Source: Myxococcota bacterium (GTDB lineage: Bacteria > Myxococcota > XYA12-FULL-58-9 > JALHOP01). From it: a stretch of DNA of 64,000 nucleotides. Location: NCBI GenBank assembly GCA_022842935.1, contig JALHOP010000011.1, positions 154,206 to 218,205 of the forward strand, written 5' to 3'. This document shows positions 37,278-46,142 of the stretch, one piece after another. Position 1 is the stretch's first letter. Each line of letters begins with the position of its first letter. Both the position numbers and the translations under genes were made by a program. The notes beneath the pieces are model-generated. The model was not told the origin of the DNA. It did no database searches and saw only the letters and a program-made list of their open reading frames with translations.

Positions 37278-38711
37278 ATGCAGGTCTCCAGGCGACAGCT
37301 TCTCAACGGCGCGGCATGCGTCGCTATTTCTGCGTCGCCCAAGGTCGCGCTCGCCTTGCAGCCCGACCGCGTCGTCGCGGCCCCGGCTCGCGTGCCGGCC
37401 CGCGGCGCGGCGAAGCGCCATGCCGATGTCATCGTCATCGGCGCTGGGGTCTCTGGCCTCAAAACAGCGCGCGAGCTCATGGCACGCGGGCATAGCGTCA
37501 TCGTTCTCGAGGCTCGCGATCGCACGGGCGGTCGGCTTCACACTGTCCGCTTAGGCGGTCGCAGCGTCGAGCGAGGCGCCGGCTGGATCCACGGGATCAC
37601 CGGCAACCCTGTCGCCGTTTTCGCGCGCAGCAAGGGCCAGCCAACGATCGTGACCGATTGGGATGACGTCGCACTCCACGGCCCTGACGGCAGCGTCTAC
37701 GCGAAAGCGGACTATCGTATCGCGTCCGAGCGTGTCGACGCGCACATCGACGCAATCCTGGCGACGCCGAGCGCTCCTGACGCCACTCTTGGACCCGTCT
37801 TGAGCGCCGCTCTCGACGCCGACGTCCGCGCGGGCAAACTCACGACGCGGCAGCGCCAGGTCGCCGACTGGTACATCGAGGCCTCCCTCAAGAGCGACTT
37901 CGCCGAAGAGCTCGACCGTATCGGCATTCGCTCGTACGGCAGCTACAAGTCGCTGCCTGGCGATGACGTCACCTTGCCGCGCGGCTATTCGGCGATCGTC
38001 GATGAGCTCGGCAAGGGGGTCGACGTGCGGTTGTTGCAGCGTGTGCGTGCCGTGGACTATCGCGGCAGCGATGTGGTGGTCACCACGGACAACGGCAAGC
38101 TCACCGCAGCAAGCGTCGTCGTCACGACACCTCTGGGTGTGCTCAAGCACGGCACGATAGCCTTCGAGCCGGCGCTCCCAGCGGCCAAGACCGCCGCCAT
38201 GCAGCGCCTCGGCGTTGGCTTACTCAATCGCGTGACCTTGTGTTTCGACCAGCCGTTCTGGCCCGACAAGGCCATCATCGGTGTGGAGCGTGACGACCAG
38301 CGCTGGTTCTTCGTCAACGCCACGAAGACGAGCGGTAAGCCGACCCTCGTCGCCCTCGTGGCCGGCGACCAGGCGCGTGCACTCGAGGAGCTTACCGACG
38401 AAGCTGCCGTCGAACGCGCCCTTGTTGCCCTGCGCGGCGCCTACGGTGAGCGCGTCACGGCGCCTCGTGCGACGCTCATCACCCGCTGGGGCAGCGACGA
38501 GTTTTCACGCGGTTCTTATTCGGCGGACACGGCGCACGTCCGCCCCGGCGACCGCAATGCGTTTGCCGCTCCCGTGTCTGAGCGCGTCTTCTTCGCGGGT
38601 GAGGCAACCCACGACGGCTTCCACGGTACCGTGCACGGCGCTTACGAATCCGGAGCACGAGTCGCGCGCGAGGTGTCGTGCGCGCTCGCCCGGACTCGGC
38701 GAGCGGTCTAG
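37278..38711 (+). CDS. FAD-dependent amine oxidase, probable Tat substrate
   Basis: Flavin monoamine oxidase family enzyme of 477 residues. ATG at 37278 opens on a twin-arginine signal (SRRQLLNGAACVAISA), suggesting export in folded, FAD-loaded form; an upstream ATG at 37206 would mask the signal. The Rossmann motif VIVIGAGVSGLKTARELMARG, the EARDRTGGR segment and the C-terminal FAD motif FFAGEATHDGFHGTVHGA are all present. The substrate (polyamine, aromatic amine or other) is not evident. Its stop is shared with the convergent gene through the palindrome CTAG. Confidence 0.9.
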   Translation: MQVSRRQLLNGAACVAISASPKVALALQPDRVVAAPARVPARGAAKRHADVIVIGAGVSGLKTARELMARGHSVIVLEARDRTGGRLHTVRLGGRSVERGAGWIHGITGNPVAVFARSKGQPTIVTDWDDVALHGPDGSVYAKADYRIASERVDAHIDAILATPSAPDATLGPVLSAALDADVRAGKLTTRQRQVADWYIEASLKSDFAEELDRIGIRSYGSYKSLPGDDVTLPRGYSAIVDELGKGVDVRLLQRVRAVDYRGSDVVVTTDNGKLTAASVVVTTPLGVLKHGTIAFEPALPAAKTAAMQRLGVGLLNRVTLCFDQPFWPDKAIIGVERDDQRWFFVNATKTSGKPTLVALVAGDQARALEELTDEAAVERALVALRGAYGERVTAPRATLITRWGSDEFSRGSYSADTAHVRPGDRNAFAAPVSERVFFAGEATHDGFHGTVHGAYESGARVAREVSCALARTRRAV

Positions 38712-39061
38712 TTGTCGCCCGAGATCTCGTTGAGCATCGGGGTCAACATCACGGGCTCACCGGCCTTGTCCATCTTCTCGGCGGTCGACTTGCGGGAGCG
38801 ATAGCGCCATTGCTGGTAGTGCGCGCTGCATAGCCCACGCGCCACGGCCGAGCGGCCACACACGGCGCAGGCACGCTTGGCGGGCGCTTGCTTGGGGCCC
38901 GAGCTTTCAGGCGAGAGCTGGTCGAGGCGGCGCTCGATGCGGCCAAGACGCTTCTCGAGCTCGGCTACGGACTGATCGAGCGCTGCTGCGATCTCGATAC
39001 GCAGATCGTCGACGAGCGATTCGAAGAGCGCACCGTAGTTCGTGGTCTTACGTGGTGGCAT
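38708..39061 (-). CDS. Small coiled-coil protein with Cys/His zinc-finger-like motif
   Basis: A 117-residue protein. Its N-terminal ~55 residues form a charged coiled coil (SLVDDLRIEIAAALDQSVAE). The central CAVCGRSAVARGLCSAHYQQW has Cys-x2-Cys and Cys-x2-His spacing suitable for zinc binding. The C-terminus is basic, then polar. Likely binds nucleic acid or protein; the function is unknown. It lies downstream of the atp operon on the same strand, after the putative terminator. Confidence 0.7.
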   Translation of the reverse strand: MPPRKTTNYGALFESLVDDLRIEIAAALDQSVAELEKRLGRIERRLDQLSPESSGPKQAPAKRACAVCGRSAVARGLCSAHYQQWRYRSRKSTAEKMDKAGEPVMLTPMLNEISGDN

Positions 39062-39182: not shown

Positions 39183-39503
39183 CTAGAACTTCTGCAAGAG
39201 CAACAGCATGAGAACCCACGTAAAGAGTACGAGGGACTCGATGAACGCGAGACCAAGGATCATCGGCACGAAGACCTTGTCCGAGGCGTTCGGGTTACGC
39301 GAGATGCCTTCGAGAGCCGCCGACGAGGCGCGGCCCTGACCGAGCGCGCCGCCCAGCGCCGCAGCACCGATACCGAAGGCCACCGCGAGGGCCATGAAGC
39401 CGACGTTGTCGCCGTAAGCCTGCGCGCCCGTCTGAGCGAACGCCGAGACCGAAACCATCATCACCGCCGCGAAAGCCGCGAGCGCCGAAAACAACTTGTT
39501 CAT
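39183..39503 (-). CDS. atpE: ATP synthase F0 subunit c, with N-terminal signal-like extension
   Basis: Rotor-ring subunit of the F-type ATP synthase. ATG at 39503 gives 106 residues, about 25-30 longer than a typical subunit c. The extra N-terminus (KLFSALAAFAAVMMVSVSAF then AQ) looks like a cleavable signal peptide. The two membrane helices follow: helix 1 with the Gly-rich GIGAAALGGALGQG, the polar loop RNP, and helix 2 with the ion-binding carboxylate in GLAFIESLVLF. It is the last gene of a short operon; the remaining atp genes are not in the window. Confidence 0.93.
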   Translation of the reverse strand: MNKLFSALAAFAAVMMVSVSAFAQTGAQAYGDNVGFMALAVAFGIGAAALGGALGQGRASSAALEGISRNPNASDKVFVPMILGLAFIESLVLFTWVLMLLLLQKF

Positions 39504-39669
39504 TTTCTTTCTCAACCTTGATGCCCGCACCGTGTCCGCGTTTGGCGTTCTCTTCTCTCTCTCCCACCCATCGCCATTGCCGCGCGCAAACTGATGCGTG
39601 CCTTTGTGATCGCGCTCCCACATGGAACGCGAAACCTCGACTCTAGAAGCGACCAGGAACCCTCTCGGC

Positions 39670-40497
39670 TCAGACCGCCGGCGCTGCGCGACCCTCATTC
39701 TCGGGGTGATGCGCGTGCGCATGGTCGTCGCCGTGATGCGCTTCCTGCACCGCAAGGCCGATGTAGATCATCGACAGCAAGCAGAAGACGAGCGTCTGGA
39801 TGCTGCAGACCATGAGGCCCAGCACCATGAAGGGCAGCGGCACGAGGATCGGCACGAGCCCCAAGAACGCCGTCAAGACCGCGTGGTCACCCATCATGTT
39901 GGCGGCAAGACGAACACCGAGCGAGAAGGGGCGCGCCACATGTGAGACGAGCTCGATCGGGAACATGAGCGGCGCGAGAAACCACCCCCACCACATGCCG
40001 GTTGGGTTCGCCATGTGCGCGATGTGGGCCATGCCGTTCACGCGCAGGCCGTGGAAGTTGTAGTAGAGAAACACGAAGATCGAGCAAGCGAAGGTCGTGT
40101 TCCAGTTGTCCGTCGGAGACGACATACCCGGGAACAGACCAATCACGTTCGACGTGAAGATGAAGAGCGCGAGCATCGAGATGACCGGAAAGTAGCGGCG
40201 CGCCTCTTTGCCGATGATCGTCTGCATCTGGCCGTAGAGGGCCTCGAGCGCCATCTCGATGAGGTTGCGAATGCTGATGCGCGGTTCGGGGACGATACCG
40301 CCGTCTTTGGCCTTCTTGATGTCGCCCCGCGTCGTCATGCCGAGCCACAACACGATGATGGCGACCACCAGGGCCGCCGCGACATGCTGGAAGGCGGCGG
40401 CGTTGCCGAAGAGCACGCCCTTCTGCTGCGTCTGTAGGTAGTGCTGGATCTGCGCGAAGCCGGGGAGGAAATTGAGCCAGGTAGAGCCGTGTTCCAT
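39670..40497 (-). CDS. atpB: ATP synthase F0 subunit a
   Basis: Stator subunit that forms the proton half-channels beside the c-ring. The 275-residue protein has five or six membrane helices, the essential arginine in RPFSLGVRLAANM, and the conserved FTSNVIGLFPG and SNxxGLxP-type region. The C-terminal tail is His/Asp/Glu-rich (AHHGDDHAHAHHPENEG), an extension beyond the family core that might bind metal. The subunit c gene lies 166 bp downstream on the same strand. Confidence 0.95.
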   Translation of the reverse strand: MEHGSTWLNFLPGFAQIQHYLQTQQKGVLFGNAAAFQHVAAALVVAIIVLWLGMTTRGDIKKAKDGGIVPEPRISIRNLIEMALEALYGQMQTIIGKEARRYFPVISMLALFIFTSNVIGLFPGMSSPTDNWNTTFACSIFVFLYYNFHGLRVNGMAHIAHMANPTGMWWGWFLAPLMFPIELVSHVARPFSLGVRLAANMMGDHAVLTAFLGLVPILVPLPFMVLGLMVCSIQTLVFCLLSMIYIGLAVQEAHHGDDHAHAHHPENEGRAAPAV

Positions 40498-40503
40498 TGG
40501 AGC

Positions 40504-40893
40504 TTAGGTTCCTGTGTTCGCTTTAGCGGTCGAAGGTTTGACGAGCAGGGCTTGATGGGTCATCGCCATCATGGTGCCGCTGAGCAGTGAGCCGAGGCCG
40601 ATGGCGAAGCCGACGGGGTCGAGCTTCAAGCCGAGCAGCAGGGCCGCCATGACGCCCATGACCAAGAAGAACTTGAACATGAGGCCGACCGCGTAGAGGG
40701 CGCGCATGCCACCAGGCTGCAGCGTGCGCGAGACGAGCAAGCGAATGGCGTAGAAGTTCGCAGCCATCACCGAGCCGCCCAGAAAGACGGCGAGCGCCAA
40801 ATGCGGCGCGACGAACACCATGACGACAGCGAGCACGCCCGCGGAGACGAGCTGGTAGAGGTTGGCCAAGCGCAACAAGCGCGGGTCGTTCAT
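40504..40893 (-). CDS. ATP synthase subunit I-like membrane protein
   Basis: A 129-residue protein with four hydrophobic helices placed just ahead of atpB, the usual position of atpI, whose product assists c-ring assembly. Sequence similarity to AtpI is loose, so the call leans on position and topology. The start overlaps the upstream gene by ATGA, and the stop is 6 bp from atpB. Confidence 0.75.
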   Translation of the reverse strand: MNDPRLLRLANLYQLVSAGVLAVVMVFVAPHLALAVFLGGSVMAANFYAIRLLVSRTLQPGGMRALYAVGLMFKFFLVMGVMAALLLGLKLDPVGFAIGLGSLLSGTMMAMTHQALLVKPSTAKANTGT

Positions 40894-41195
40894 GGCGCGC
40901 GGGAGCTACCCCAAAGGAATCGCCTTGTAAAGGTGAGGTAAGCGAGCACGCCAATGGAGCCGCAGGTCGCCGAGAGGGCGACGAAGGGCCACGGATTGAC
41001 CCCGCGTTTGCGCGCATCGCCAACCAGCCAAACGCACGCAGCCGTGAGCGCCAGGGCGAGGTCGATGAGCATCTGCATGGCCCACGGCTCCCGCATGGCC
41101 ACGGTCAAGAAGCCCAGGAGGCCGTGGCTCACGACGACGCTCAGGGTGTACACGGTAAAGGCAACGAAAACGGTAAGGTACACGAAGAATCGCAT
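40890..41195 (-). CDS. DUF2834-type small membrane protein
   Basis: A 101-residue protein with three hydrophobic helices. ATG at 41195 (MRFFVYLTVFVAFTVYTLSV) is preferred to a longer frame that would cross the palindrome at 41229. The pattern fits DUF2834, small three-helix membrane proteins of unknown function. It is the first gene of the atp operon here, overlapping the AtpI-like gene by ATGA, so it may aid F0 assembly. Confidence 0.7.
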   Translation of the reverse strand: MRFFVYLTVFVAFTVYTLSVVVSHGLLGFLTVAMREPWAMQMLIDLALALTAACVWLVGDARKRGVNPWPFVALSATCGSIGVLAYLTFTRRFLWGSSRAP

Positions 41196-41228
41196 GCTCG
41201 GAGCTTGCCTGTCGAAGGTGCGGTTGCC

Positions 41229-41247
41229 CATGACCTCCGAGGTCATG
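41229..41247. promoter_or_regulatory. Perfect 19-bp palindrome, candidate XRE operator
   Basis: CATGACCTC and GAGGTCATG flank a single central C. The palindrome lies in the 86-bp gap between the divergent atp operon and the XRE regulator, centred 44 bp before the regulator start. The position suggests autoregulation and possibly control of the first atp-operon gene. Confidence 0.6.
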
Positions 41248-41281: not shown

Positions 41282-42088
41282 ATGGCATTTGGCGCGATGC
41301 TTCGGGGCTGGCGGTCGGCGCGCCGCTTTACACAGGAAGACCTCGCCGACGCCGCCGAGATCTCGACCCGTCACTTGTCGTGCCTCGAGAGCGGCAAGGC
41401 CAAGCCCAGCCGCGACATGGTCCTCATCCTCGCGAGCGCCCTCGACTTGCCCTTCCGCGACCGCAACCTGTTGCTCAACGCTGCGGGCTTTGTCGCTGCG
41501 TATTCGTCGCTAGCGCTCGATGCGGAACCGATGCGACCCGTGCGCGCGGCACTCGCCACGATGCTCGCGCATCACGAGCCCAATCCGACCTTCGTCTTCG
41601 ACAGCGGCTGGAATGTGCTCATGGCGAGCTCCGGTGCGGTTTCGGTGATGAGCCTTTTCCTCGGTGCGTCCATCGACCCCAAGGTGGCCGCAAACCTCGT
41701 GCATGCGCTCTTTCATCCGACAGGACTCCGAGGCAGCTTGGTCAATTGGCCAGCGGTTGCTGGGCATGCTCTGGCGCGATTGCGACGTGACGTCGCCGGC
41801 CGGCCGCACGATCAATCGGCTCGCGCAGCGCTCGATGCGGCGTTGTCCTACGGCACCGACGGGGTCGCGCCTGTCGAAGACGGTGACCCGCTCTTGCCGT
41901 TCTTACCCATCCACTTGCGGCGCGGTGAGCACGAGGCGCGCTTCTTCACCTTGCTCGCGAGCCTCGGTGCCCCCCTCGACGTGACCGCTCAAGAGCTCTT
42001 CATCGAGACCTACTACCCGGTCGACGCGGCTACTGAGCGCCTGATGCTGGAGCTTCGGGCTCGCTCCGATAGCGACGCTGCCAGCTGA
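41282..42088 (+). CDS. XRE-family regulator with MmyB-like ligand domain
   Basis: A 268-residue transcription regulator. The N-terminal helix-turn-helix (SARRFTQEDLADAAEISTRH onwards) is followed by the MmyB-like sensor domain typical of this subfamily (HHEPNPTFVFDSGWNVLMAS, then the ELFIETYYPVD end). Such proteins often bind a small hydrophobic ligand and repress neighbouring genes. A perfect palindrome sits 35 bp upstream of its start. Its 3' end overlaps the convergent gene by 59 bp. Confidence 0.9.
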   Translation: MAFGAMLRGWRSARRFTQEDLADAAEISTRHLSCLESGKAKPSRDMVLILASALDLPFRDRNLLLNAAGFVAAYSSLALDAEPMRPVRAALATMLAHHEPNPTFVFDSGWNVLMASSGAVSVMSLFLGASIDPKVAANLVHALFHPTGLRGSLVNWPAVAGHALARLRRDVAGRPHDQSARAALDAALSYGTDGVAPVEDGDPLLPFLPIHLRRGEHEARFFTLLASLGAPLDVTAQELFIETYYPVDAATERLMLELRARSDSDAAS

Positions 42089-42674
42089 ACGGCTCGATGA
42101 AGATGCGTTCGTCGATGTTGCCGGTGAAGGTGACTGGCACGCCGTGCCGGCGCAGGGCTTCGCACGCTTCGGCGGCGATCGCGAGAGACGCTTGCTCGTG
42201 CCCATCGCCCTCGACGTAAGCGCCATAGGCAAGCCACAATCCCTCGCCCTTCACACCACGCTCGAGGTCCTGCCAATGGTAGAACACGGCGCCGCGCGGT
42301 GGATTCGCCAGCTGGGCGGCGATGTCGTTTGCCTCGTCCCAGCCGTCACTCATGGTGTAGCCGGCGCCCTGCAGGGCGATGATGCCCGCCTCGCCCAGCT
42401 CTTTGAAGGCGGCGTCGATCTTGTCGTTGATGGTGACCGAAGGCCAGCTGGCCTCGAGCTTTTCGCGTGCATCGACCGCCGCGCGGGCCCGATCGGCGAA
42501 CTTCTGCATGGTCGGCTCGTCGACACCGCCGAGCTCGTCGTCGGTGCGGTCGTGGATCTGTTCGATGAGGTCGCCGTAGCTGACCATGCCGCTGCGGGCG
42601 GTGAGGTCGATCCACTCCGCAATGGCGTCCAGGATGTCTTTGACGTCGTCTTGTTCGTGCATGTGCCTGCTCAT
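42030..42674 (-). CDS. DUF6891-like uncharacterised protein
   Basis: A 214-residue cytoplasmic protein. ATG at 42674 is chosen; ATG at 42662 (MHEQDD) is equally possible. It has an acidic helical N-terminal half and a compact second half with SDGWDEANDIAAQL, GAVFYHWQDLERGV and PVTFTGNIDERIFIEPFSWQ, a layout like the DUF6891 family (tentative). The last 59 bp overlap the 3' end of the XRE gene in antisense. Confidence 0.65.
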   Translation of the reverse strand: MSRHMHEQDDVKDILDAIAEWIDLTARSGMVSYGDLIEQIHDRTDDELGGVDEPTMQKFADRARAAVDAREKLEASWPSVTINDKIDAAFKELGEAGIIALQGAGYTMSDGWDEANDIAAQLANPPRGAVFYHWQDLERGVKGEGLWLAYGAYVEGDGHEQASLAIAAEACEALRRHGVPVTFTGNIDERIFIEPFSWQRRYRSEPEAPASGAQ

Positions 42675-42720
42675 GGTCGTCAGGGGTAGGCCACGAGTCA
42701 ACAGGCAGCCCTAGGAAAGA

Positions 42721-42820
42721 AGCAACGGCGGGGTGCGCGCCCCGCCGTCGCTTAGTCAACCCCGGAAGTCGGAGGGGCGCCCCCGGTCGTTGACTTGCTT
42801 GACGCCTTTCGGCGTGAAGC
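42721..42820 (+). other. Hairpin cluster in divergent spacer
   Basis: Three inverted repeats lie in series. Hairpin 1 is 42725-42733 with 42740-42748, 9 bp perfect. Hairpin 2 has an outer stem AGTCAAC at 42754-42760 with GTTGACT at 42789-42795. Hairpin 3 is ACGCC/GGCGT at 42802-42815 with a TTTC loop. A further direct AGTCAAC is at 42696. This could be an RNA leader of the M16 operon, a small RNA or a regulator-binding region. Confidence 0.4.
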
Positions 42821-42940
42821 ACATTCCTTAGCCTAGCACATCGAATCAAAGCGTCTTGCCGAAGCCCGTCCGATGTGCGTCGATGCAGTCAATTGTAGGC
42901 CACACCTGCAAGCGGTCAATTTTTGAGGACGTTTTTTTCG

Positions 42941-44296
42941 ATGAGCCAAACCGACGACGAAAAAGCCATGGAGCGCGTCGCCGCCGACGCAGCCAGAGCA
43001 GCGGGTCACTCCGTGAAGCTAACGGGGTTCGCCCGCTATAACGCACAGCTGGCCGCGTCGCGCTTCCAGCTCGACAACGGGCTCGTCATCGTCCTGCTCC
43101 CCGACGAGCGCGCGCCGGTCTTTGCCTACCAAACGTGGTACCGGGTCGGCAGCAAAGACGAAAACCCCGACCGCACCGGCCTTGCGCACCTGTTCGAGCA
43201 CCTGATGTTCAAGGGCACCACCAAACATCCGGTCGGCGAGCTCGATCGCGAGCTCGAGTCGCGCGGCTCGCAAACCAACGCCGCCACCTGGGTCGACTGG
43301 ACGTATTATACGTGCGCTTTAGCGGTCAGGCCTGGCAACTTGGCGACCGTCGTCGACTTCGAGTCCGACCGCATGCGGGGGCTCGCGCTCACCCAAGACG
43401 TCTTCGCGAGCGAGCTCGACGTGGTGAAAAACGAACGCCGCATGAGCGTCGACGATTCGGTCATGGGTCGCATCAGCGAGACGTTGTTCGCGACGAGCTT
43501 CACCCGTCACGCCTATCGCTGGCCCACCATCGGTCACCTTGAACACCTCGAGACCATGCAGCTCGAGCACGCGCGTCGCTTTTACGACACGTATTACGCC
43601 CCCAATAACGCGACCGTCGTGGTGGTTGGCGCTCTCGACCCCGTCGAAGCAATCACCACGCTCGCCAAGGCATATGGGGCCATCCCAGCCTCGAAGCTCC
43701 CCGAGCGTCGTAGGAGTCCCGAGCCCGAGCAGACCGAGGCCCGCGAGGCACGTTTGAAGCTACCGGCGGTGAGCGCTCACGTCGCGATGGGCTATCGCGC
43801 GCCGGGTCAGAGCGACCCCATGCACGCGGCCCTCGAGATCGCGAGCGAAGCGTTGCTGACGGGCGACAACGCGCGCCTCTACAAGCGCCTCGTCACCGAC
43901 GAAGAGTTGGCGACGGAGGTCGACGGGTTTCTTTCCCCGTTTGCAGAGCCTGGCATTTACGAAGTGCTGCTCACGTTGCGACCCGGTGCAGATGCGCAGC
44001 GCGCGATCGACATCGTGCAAGAAGAGCTGTCGCGGGTCGGCGATGGCCTCACGGACGGTGAGTGGCGTAAAGCCCAAAACGGCCTGACACTCTCGGCCCT
44101 CGATAGCCTCAAGGACGCCGAGGGGCTCGCCGAGCAGCTCGGTCACCACGAGACCAACTCCCGCGCTTTCGAGAAGACCTTCGAGGCCATCCGCCGCTGG
44201 GAGAACGTGCAGCGCGGCGACGTTGCCCAAGCCGCCAAGACCTTCTTCGACCCCCGACGCCGAACCGTCGTCGTCAATCAGCCGGAGTCCACTTGA
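42941..44296 (+). CDS. M16 zinc peptidase, catalytic subunit
   Basis: Insulinase-type peptidase of 451 residues. ATG at 42941 follows GAGGAC at good distance. The inverted zinc motif HxxEH is intact as HLFEH at 83-87, and the typical upstream strand (FQLDNGLVIVLLPDERAPVF) and DVVKNERR segment are present. It has no signal peptide, so it acts in the cytoplasm or leaves by another route. It is followed without gap by a second M16 protein lacking the zinc motif, the classical two-subunit arrangement. First gene of a four-gene operon. Confidence 0.93.
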   Translation: MSQTDDEKAMERVAADAARAAGHSVKLTGFARYNAQLAASRFQLDNGLVIVLLPDERAPVFAYQTWYRVGSKDENPDRTGLAHLFEHLMFKGTTKHPVGELDRELESRGSQTNAATWVDWTYYTCALAVRPGNLATVVDFESDRMRGLALTQDVFASELDVVKNERRMSVDDSVMGRISETLFATSFTRHAYRWPTIGHLEHLETMQLEHARRFYDTYYAPNNATVVVVGALDPVEAITTLAKAYGAIPASKLPERRRSPEPEQTEAREARLKLPAVSAHVAMGYRAPGQSDPMHAALEIASEALLTGDNARLYKRLVTDEELATEVDGFLSPFAEPGIYEVLLTLRPGADAQRAIDIVQEELSRVGDGLTDGEWRKAQNGLTLSALDSLKDAEGLAEQLGHHETNSRAFEKTFEAIRRWENVQRGDVAQAAKTFFDPRRRTVVVNQPEST

Positions 44297-45627
44297 ACGC
44301 CCCCAAAGTGTCGCGCGCTACTCTGCGCGGCGCCGTTGTCCTGACCGTCGAAGAGCACAGCTTGCCGGTCGTTCGCTTCGTCATCGCGTTGCGTCGTGGC
44401 AGCGCGGTCGACCCCGAGGGCCAGTCGGGCGCGCTGCGCGCCATGATGGAGCTCATGTTGCGCGGCACCGACAGCAAGAGCCGCGAACGCTTCAATGCCG
44501 AGCTCGAGGAGCTGGGTTCGAGCTTCAATGCCGTCCCGGGTAGCGAGGCTGCTTACTTTCGCGGCGTTGCTCTCAAGCGCAACCTCGGTGCGACGGTCAA
44601 CCTCATCGCCGAGGCTTTGAGCGCGCCAGCCTTCGACGCCGAGGAGCACGCGGCGCTGATCGACGAAATGGTGCAAGCGCTTGCCTCCGATCGCGATGAC
44701 GACGACACGGTCGCCGAGCTGTTTCTGCGCCGCGCCTTCTACAAAGGACATCCGCTTCAGCGGAGTCCACTAGGCGAGGCTCCCCAGGTCGCCAAGCTCG
44801 ATATGGAGGCGCTGCGACGCCTGCACGCGAATCGCGTGGTCGCAAGCGACATCATCGTCGCCTTCGCTGGTGACATCACGCCCGACGAGTCCCTGCAGGC
44901 CGCCAACGTCATCGTCGAGAAGCTCCCGGCTGGCACGGCACCTTCGCCGCTCGGCGCGTCTTTGCCGGCCTTGCCTGAGCCGAAGGGCCTGCGCATCGTT
45001 GTCGCCGACAAGCCAGATCGCGCTCAGGTTCAGCTCCGCGTTGCAAACCCGGGGCTTGCCGGCGTTCACCCCGACACGCTCGCGTTGTGGCTCGGCATCG
45101 TCGCCTTCGGCGGCACGTTTACGTCACCCCTCACCCAAGAGGTGCGTGACGTGCGTGGCTGGTCGTACGTGGCACACGCCGACTTCTCACGCCGTCAGGT
45201 GCTGCCGTCGCCCATCGTGCTGCGCAGCGTGCCGCCAAAAGAGAACGCCGTCGACTGCTTGGCCCTCGAGATCGAGCTCATGGACAAGCTCGCCCAGGGA
45301 CAGCTGCCACAGGCGGTACTCGAGCGGTCGCGCTCGTACATGCTTGGCCGTTACCCCTTCGAGGTGGCCACCGCGGCCGACATGCTCAACCCGGTCTTGC
45401 GGTGCGAGTTGCTCGGGGAGCCGGCGACCGAGATCTTCGCGACGCCATCGCGCATCGAGGCGCTCAGTGACGCTCAGGTTCGCGCAGCGCTCATCAAGCA
45501 CCTGCAGCCGGCAAACCTCACCGTGGCGATGGTCTCGACCGCAGCCGACATCCGCGACGAGCTCGCCCGCAAGCTCCCGGCCGCCACCATAGAGGTCGTG
45601 GACTTTCGTACCGAGCTTGGCGGATAG
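44293..45627 (+). CDS. M16 peptidase-like protein, non-catalytic partner
   Basis: A 444-residue M16 fold protein starting at TTG 44293, which follows GGAG at a 5-base spacing and overlaps the preceding stop (TTGA). The zinc motif region reads ALRAMMELMLRGT, so HxxEH is lost and the subunit should be structural. The glycine-rich C-terminal half typical of the non-catalytic subunit is present (VRDVRGWSYVAHADFS). It probably forms a heterodimer with the catalytic subunit upstream, closing over substrates. Confidence 0.88.
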   Translation: MNAPKVSRATLRGAVVLTVEEHSLPVVRFVIALRRGSAVDPEGQSGALRAMMELMLRGTDSKSRERFNAELEELGSSFNAVPGSEAAYFRGVALKRNLGATVNLIAEALSAPAFDAEEHAALIDEMVQALASDRDDDDTVAELFLRRAFYKGHPLQRSPLGEAPQVAKLDMEALRRLHANRVVASDIIVAFAGDITPDESLQAANVIVEKLPAGTAPSPLGASLPALPEPKGLRIVVADKPDRAQVQLRVANPGLAGVHPDTLALWLGIVAFGGTFTSPLTQEVRDVRGWSYVAHADFSRRQVLPSPIVLRSVPPKENAVDCLALEIELMDKLAQGQLPQAVLERSRSYMLGRYPFEVATAADMLNPVLRCELLGEPATEIFATPSRIEALSDAQVRAALIKHLQPANLTVAMVSTAADIRDELARKLPAATIEVVDFRTELGG

Positions 45628-45638
45628 TCGGAGGCGCG

Positions 45639-46142
45639 ATGAAATTCGAAGCCTCCCACACCTTTCGCGGCATTTCTCTCGCAGACTACGAGAAGCTGTA
45701 CTTCGACGAAGCCTTCAACATCGCCCTGTGCAAGGCGGTGAACCTCGATCGCACCCTGATCAAGCGCGACGAGAAGGGCAATCACCTGTCCCGCTCGGTC
45801 AAGGTCTCGCCACGCGACCGCGAGATTCCGGGCCCACTGGTGAAAGTACTCGGCTCGTCCCGCATCGAGTACACCGAACAGGTCGAATACGACTTCGGCA
45901 GCTACAAGGGCACCTGGAAGTCCATCTCGTCCGTGATGACGGACAAGGTCGAGTCATCGGGCATCTTCCGCCTCGAGAACGCGGGTGATGGCGTCAAGCG
46001 CGTCATCGAGGGCGACATCAAGGTGAAGGTGTTTGGCGTCGGCGGTGTCATCGAGCGCTTCATCGTCGCCGACATCGAGAAGAGCTACGAACAGGCTGCT
46101 GACTTCACGCGCCGATGGATCGCCTCGGGCGGCAAGGTTTGA
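45639..46142 (+). CDS. DUF2505-family protein
   Basis: A 167-residue protein with the DUF2505 pattern of mixed beta strands and a long C-terminal helix, resembling START/SRPBCC-like hydrophobic-ligand folds (ASHTFRGISLADYEKLYFDE, then KVFGVGGVIERFIVADIEKS). Lipid binding is inferred only from the fold resemblance. It lies 11 bp after the M16 partner and overlaps the next gene, so it belongs to the M16 operon. Confidence 0.75.
   Translation: MKFEASHTFRGISLADYEKLYFDEAFNIALCKAVNLDRTLIKRDEKGNHLSRSVKVSPRDREIPGPLVKVLGSSRIEYTEQVEYDFGSYKGTWKSISSVMTDKVESSGIFRLENAGDGVKRVIEGDIKVKVFGVGGVIERFIVADIEKSYEQAADFTRRWIASGGKV

Follow-up and report, generated by a model that had tools for sequence, protein, structure and literature searches.

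Structure of the Spacer Between the DUF6891 Gene and the M16 Operon

In the window, by which the whole analysed stretch of 64,000 nucleotides is meant, a highly structured spacer separates a minus-strand gene encoding a DUF6891 protein (42030..42671; PF21831, E 2e-47; start codon approximate) from a divergent plus-strand operon whose first gene (42941..44296) encodes an M16 peptidase according to its domain match. This operon, consisting of two M16 peptidase genes and a subsequent DUF2505 gene (42941-46142), is conserved in the order. Within the spacer, three perfect or nearly perfect hairpins follow each other between positions 42720 and 42821 (42720-42753, 42754-42795, and 42796-42821), and the series of three described in an earlier note on this DNA is thus borne out by the sequence, a repeat scan and folds, while a fourth hairpin at 42836-42878 had been overlooked. 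The impression of a spacer with unusually much structure likewise holds when RNA folding statistics are applied, as region 42690-42830 gives z-scores of -3.66 (plus strand) and -3.88 (minus strand), a level reached by none of 200 shuffles. The predicted minus-strand RNA of about 172 nt gives a fold z-score of -5.83.

Read on the minus strand, the element starts with the 5' hairpin P1 (GCACAUCGGA.../...UUCGAUGUGC; 42836..42878), found by repeat scan and fold, and continues with P2 (UGCUUCACGCC-GAAA-GGCGUCAAGCA, on the plus strand TGCTTGACGCC-TTTC-GGCGTGAAGCA; 42796..42821), which is seen in the folds and is variable or missing in relatives. Hairpin P3 (42754..42795; folds and covariation) presents an anti-Shine-Dalgarno loop with the segment CCCCUCC (42771..42777), the mean probability of being unpaired amounting to 0.81 in the window RNA. 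The terminator-like hairpin P4 (42720..42753; repeat scan and covariation) consists of a 14-bp GC-rich stem (plus strand AAGCAACGGCGGGG-TGCGCG-CCCCGCCGTCGCTT) closing the loop CGCGCA (42734..42739), and is followed by a U-rich tail, CUUUCCU (42713..42719), which is weak here and replaced by a strong U-tract in several relatives.

The heptamer AGTCAAC does occur where the earlier note had placed it (42696, 42754, and, inverted, 42789), but its reading as a repeated motif did not survive. Two of the copies are simply the arms of the P3 stem (AGTCAAC...GTTGACT on the plus strand), the count in the window is at chance (4 matches versus 4.9 expected), and relatives show other letters at the aligned position, i.e., the heptamer is not conserved. 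It was consequently dismissed as a regulator site, and an AGTCAAC regulator array is unsupported.

Members of the Family and Search Scope

Blast searches with the spacer gave related loci in genomes G001, G004, and G006, to which G002 was added from the region upstream of its M16 gene. A covariance model of P3 plus P4 from these four sequences and the window (R1) finds the same core, once per genome, in seven of the order's eight genomes, of which G005 and G007 had not contributed to the model. When applied to 195 genomes of the phylum, R1 matched 19 at E ≤ 0.01, comprising the seven of the order, seven of a second family (f8) and five scattered weak matches (G070, G121, G137, G174, and G040) that were not accepted. 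Model R2, built from f8 sequences, retrieved 14 of the 195 genomes at E ≤ 0.001, namely six order members (that in the window's own genome was missed) and eight of f8, its one new f8 member being G024, as the other seven had first been found by R1. The accepted set comprises 15 members, seven from the order and eight from f8, where the element has a short version of about 85-126 nt. In the remaining 180 of the 195 genomes, neither model revealed a convincing member, and Citreicoccus inhibens gave no convincing R1 match. The locus is single-copy in its own genome, and a genome repeat family was discarded on these grounds.

Among the f8 genomes listed, eight of nine carry the element, and the R2 search gave no match in G033. 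The eighth genome of the order, G003, is devoid of the RNA; even a search with R1 and no filters yields no good match in it, and the M16 gene almost abuts an AtpB-like gene (named by eye). Judged from this arrangement, G003 appears to have lost the sRNA. A sequence-pattern scan of genome contigs, not exhaustive since the pattern is blind to the window's own member, gave 73 stretches, of which 10 were accepted by both R1 and R2. All 10 are from Deltaproteobacteria, Myxococcota or Myxococcales MAGs and match genomes already found, and the remaining 63 were discarded as chance matches. Also not accepted were L149 from Sumerlaeota, scoring 28.9 bits with R1 but not found by R2 and located inside an open frame, and the weak matches L204 and L205.

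Conserved Loops and Compensatory Changes

In the order, 17 of 27 base pairs change on both sides (7 sequences), and in f8 this applies to 15 of 22 pairs (8 sequences), none of 500 shuffles being as high in either case, with both alignments (A5, A6) having been fitted to the model's structure and therefore biased toward it. Slid structures used as control gave far fewer compensatory changes. A joint alignment of 14 sequences (A3) misaligned the P3 loop and was excluded from the counts. In the P4 helix, 100% of the cells are paired and 9 of 12 pairs show changes on both sides. Hence, compensatory changes in homologues, on whose presence the earlier note had made its proposal depend, do exist.

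While the stems vary, CCUCC in the P3 loop and CGCGCA in the P4 loop are invariant in all 15 members. CGCGCA is predicted to be unpaired in each of them, and at least one CCUCC copy per RNA is predicted to be open (P 0.81-1.00), the additional copies in G004, G007, and G009 being mostly paired by prediction. At the 3' end, a stem of 10-15 pairs is found in 15/15 members, and the 10 tail bases hold between three and eight T, with a clear U-tract in several. After P4, the window has 6 T per 10, whereas the tails of G002 (3) and G001 (4) are both poor. The f8 form is composed of a promoter, a hairpin with loop YCCCUCC, a terminator stem and, in most members, U-runs, seven members having a predicted length of 85-95 nt and G024 one of 126 nt; the spacing between promoter and hairpin has shrunk to a few tens of bases. 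The order form bears an extra variable 5' domain and has a predicted total length of 151-236 nt. G024 possesses two open CCUCC-loop hairpins in series ahead of the terminator (L085 1395-1620). In the terminator stem of the same genome, CACG/CGUG stands in place of GAG/CUC, with the CGCGCA loop left intact.

Promoter and Sense Strand

A scan of region 42500-43100 reported only one promoter-like site, the sigma70-type TTGACC-N16-TACAAT on the minus strand (42919-42892; 10/12 match). The -35 element TTGACC (42914..42919) is also present upstream of the other members, and the -10 element TACAAT (42892..42897) occurs in all seven order members. With a start 7 nt past the -10 element and an end past the U-rich tail, the predicted transcript of about 172 nt would span 42713..42885. 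A TTGAC-box promoter of at least 9/12 is found on the sense strand upstream of 15/15 members, the window included. In any single genome, however, the promoter is weak evidence, especially in G005 and G044, because the antisense direction likewise gives promoter-like scores (6-10) and 0-48 of 200 mononucleotide shuffles equal the score of the sense direction. The sense strand was also assessed independently of promoters by a wobble test, in which G-U pairs outnumber A-C cells by 21:5 (order) and 15:1 (f8) in the minus-strand reading. This balance favours the minus strand as sense. As a possible mark of a regulon, the promoter pattern TTGAC-N11-15-TCCTACAATGTA is present only at the sRNA locus, in 2/8 genomes, and is too strict for a wider conclusion.

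Genes Beside the Element

In six of the seven order members, the sRNA locus is divergent from M16, while in G006 a DUF2505 gene replaces the M16 pair. Downstream, the DUF6891 gene of the window, next on the same strand, is not conserved beside the element, its place being taken by an AtpI-like gene in G001 (below the Pfam cut-off) and by a PTS EIIA gene in G002. The nearest downstream gene was found on the opposite strand in G005 (YceG), G006 (thioesterase), G018, and G030. The f8 neighbours differ again, and in the stretches read the element is not located beside M16. As promoter and loops are kept while the downstream gene changes, a stand-alone sRNA is suggested rather than a leader.

Putative Mode of Action and Alternative Explanations

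Among the options offered by the earlier note, a leader RNA, an sRNA and a regulator array, the sRNA is the one that stands, as the promoter, the terminator-like end, the compensatory changes and the occurrence of a short form at a different location in a second family all agree with it. From these sequence features, the element is quite probably the gene of a trans-acting sRNA read from the minus strand, which would block Shine-Dalgarno sites independently of Hfq. The sigma70-type promoter would start the RNA of about 172 nt, ending at the GC-rich hairpin P4, and its working part would be the 3' half, with P3 presenting the CCCUCC loop and P4 supposedly combining termination with the invariant CGCGCA loop. 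CCUCC is the core of the anti-Shine-Dalgarno sequence of 16S rRNA. Hence, the P3 loop would most likely pair with mRNAs at ribosome-binding sites of the GGAGGG type and thereby block translation of these targets without Hfq. The predicted pairing energy of the window loop is -17.6 kcal/mol with AAGGAGGGGUC and -9.5 kcal/mol with AAGGAGGUGAU, i.e., it pairs well with a GGAGGGG site. With the Pfam model, Hfq was found in none of 58 relatives, the control being positive in 5 of 14 known genomes; the RNA would therefore act without this chaperone.

The target pattern TCGGAGGGG-N2-10-ATG has 33 sites in eight genomes, three of which are the sRNA locus itself, compared to 11 in the reversed control. 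Among the open frames of at least 40 aa at the 30 of 33 sites read, no two match each other, so that a shared target did not emerge. Since termination does not require an invariant loop, CGCGCA is a probable second contact site. Extending this, the RNAs could tentatively be regarded as an Hfq-independent sRNA family with two heads, restricted to two lineages of Myxococcota, although we rate this view as somewhat less likely than not. In it, the anti-Shine-Dalgarno loop would give broad translational repression, and CGCGCA as second head might form a kissing dimer, bind a second target or serve as docking site of an unknown chaperone.

The invariant loops might also be explained by a sponge or decoy, with the CCUCC loop binding Shine-Dalgarno-like RNA as a trap for ribosomes or another RNA without control of individual mRNAs, or with the CGCG core dimerising the RNA. 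This is rather unlikely. The conservation of CGCGCA in 15/15 members with a palindromic CGCG core in the P4 loop and the lack of a conserved target gene among the sites read would fit, but known CCUCC-loop sRNAs are, as far as the available text of their reports goes, described as antisense RNAs pairing at mRNA Shine-Dalgarno sites (PMC10746234, PMC5362039). A minus-strand leader or attenuator, with P4 terminating conditionally within the 5' UTR of whichever gene lies downstream, is improbable as well. It would account for the window, where DUF6891 begins on the same strand some 50 bases past P4, and for G001, where the AtpI-like gene follows in the same orientation. However, the identity of the downstream gene varies between DUF6891, AtpI-like and PTS EIIA, its orientation is opposite in G005, G006, G018, and G030, and the folds gave no sign of an alternative anti-terminator pairing.

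Two further explanations do not involve a minus-strand RNA. On the plus strand, which folds nearly as well (z -3.66), the loop AGUCGGAGGGG holds a GGA and could represent a CsrA/RsmA-type site or belong to a leader of the M16 operon. This is very unlikely considering the G-U/A-C balance of 21:5 and 15:1, the shared promoter pointing to the minus strand, and the f8 copy, which has no M16 neighbour within the stretches read, yet keeps the minus-strand-type promoter and U-tract. The M16 leader suggested by the earlier note is likewise contradicted, as the predicted RNA is on the opposite strand and points away from M16. The long perfect inverted repeats could, in principle, act at the DNA level as cruciform, REP-like repeat or protein-binding array. 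We regard this as extremely unlikely, as the element is single-copy per genome, G-U pairs are tolerated on one strand only, and the order of promoter and terminator is conserved.

Relation to Known sRNAs

The preferred reading, an sRNA with an anti-Shine-Dalgarno loop, has counterparts in other bacteria. According to the accessible parts of the literature, sRNAs of this type in Rhizobiales and Neisseria base-pair with the ribosome-binding sites of mRNAs (PMC10746234, PMC3927594, PMC5362039). Among them, the cuckoo/alpha-r14 sRNAs (NfeR1, RFMSmelA075; CcsR1 = RF02791) bear C-rich anti-Shine-Dalgarno hairpin loops on variable stems (PMC10746234, PMC3927594, PMC4504443), a combination also seen here, where the hairpin is even repeated in G024. 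In contrast to those RNAs, which in the available descriptions have CCUCCUCCC in each of two to four hairpins, the present family shows YCCCUCC, usually once, its last hairpin has the invariant CGCGCA loop, and the hosts are Myxococcota without detectable Hfq. Membership in the cuckoo/alpha-r14/CcsR group was rejected, as the multi-hairpin motif CCUCCUCCC is absent and RF02791 scores 13.3 bits compared to a gathering threshold of 65.3. No Rfam family reached its gathering threshold in the window or the related loci, and sub-threshold matches (CcsR1, SorY) were not taken as membership.

The NmsR siblings of Neisseria are portrayed, in the text available, as stem-loop RNAs with UC-rich anti-Shine-Dalgarno segments directed against target Shine-Dalgarno sequences and with a Rho-independent terminator (PMC5362039). 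By this description alone, they resemble our element as stem-loop sRNAs with an anti-Shine-Dalgarno segment, but differ in having two such segments (one between the stem-loops), twin genes and a host of a different phylum (PMC5362039). Closer in host, Pxr of Myxococcus is a predicted three-stem-loop sRNA of a bacterium without hfq, with a predicted sigma54 promoter and located next to pxrR/pxrK (PMC5684412, as far as its accessible text states). It shares the multi-stem-loop build of a myxobacterial-type sRNA and the host lacking hfq, and is set apart, going by that description, by the sigma70-type promoter and the other neighbours found here; identity with Pxr was ruled out on the sigma54 promoter and the pxrR neighbour (PMC5684412). 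All in all, the element would best be read as working like the cuckoo/alpha-r14 or NmsR RNAs without being a member of either.

Literature searches revealed no description of this sRNA family of uncultured Myxococcota-type bacteria. It appears well supported, by comparative analysis of a predicted transcript, as a new sRNA family of a known functional kind, and, without any Rfam match, anti-Shine-Dalgarno-loop sRNAs seem to have arisen independently in a further lineage. Little is known of regulatory RNAs in Myxococcota, and Pxr is the sole characterised example met in our literature searches. The present family, with its 15 members, offers predicted ends, a strand and invariant putative contact loops in bacteria in which no Hfq was found, and thereby makes testable both an anti-Shine-Dalgarno sRNA action without Hfq and the reason for the invariant terminator loop, its unusual feature.

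Further Observations in the Vicinity

In the window, positions 39183-41246 (minus strand) and 41282-42088 (plus strand) comprise ATP synthase subunit genes, recognised by eye, and, in front of them as seen from the sRNA locus, the gene for an XRE-type regulator carrying an MmyB-like domain. In G001, ATP synthase genes follow directly after the sRNA locus, and the regulator and DUF6891 genes therefore seem to have been inserted in the genome of the window. Adjoining the ATP synthase genes, a 117-aa protein (MPPRKTTNYGALFESLVDDLRIEIA...; 38708-39061, minus strand) is encoded. The window copy has a C-terminus resembling CxxC...CxxH, and similar N-termini are seen, by eye, at the equivalent position in G003 and G004. 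In f8, a beta-barrel-like secreted protein of about 217 aa is encoded upstream of the sRNA locus in G039, G044, and G009 (L063, L067, and L068), and in G039 a subtilase gene comes after it.
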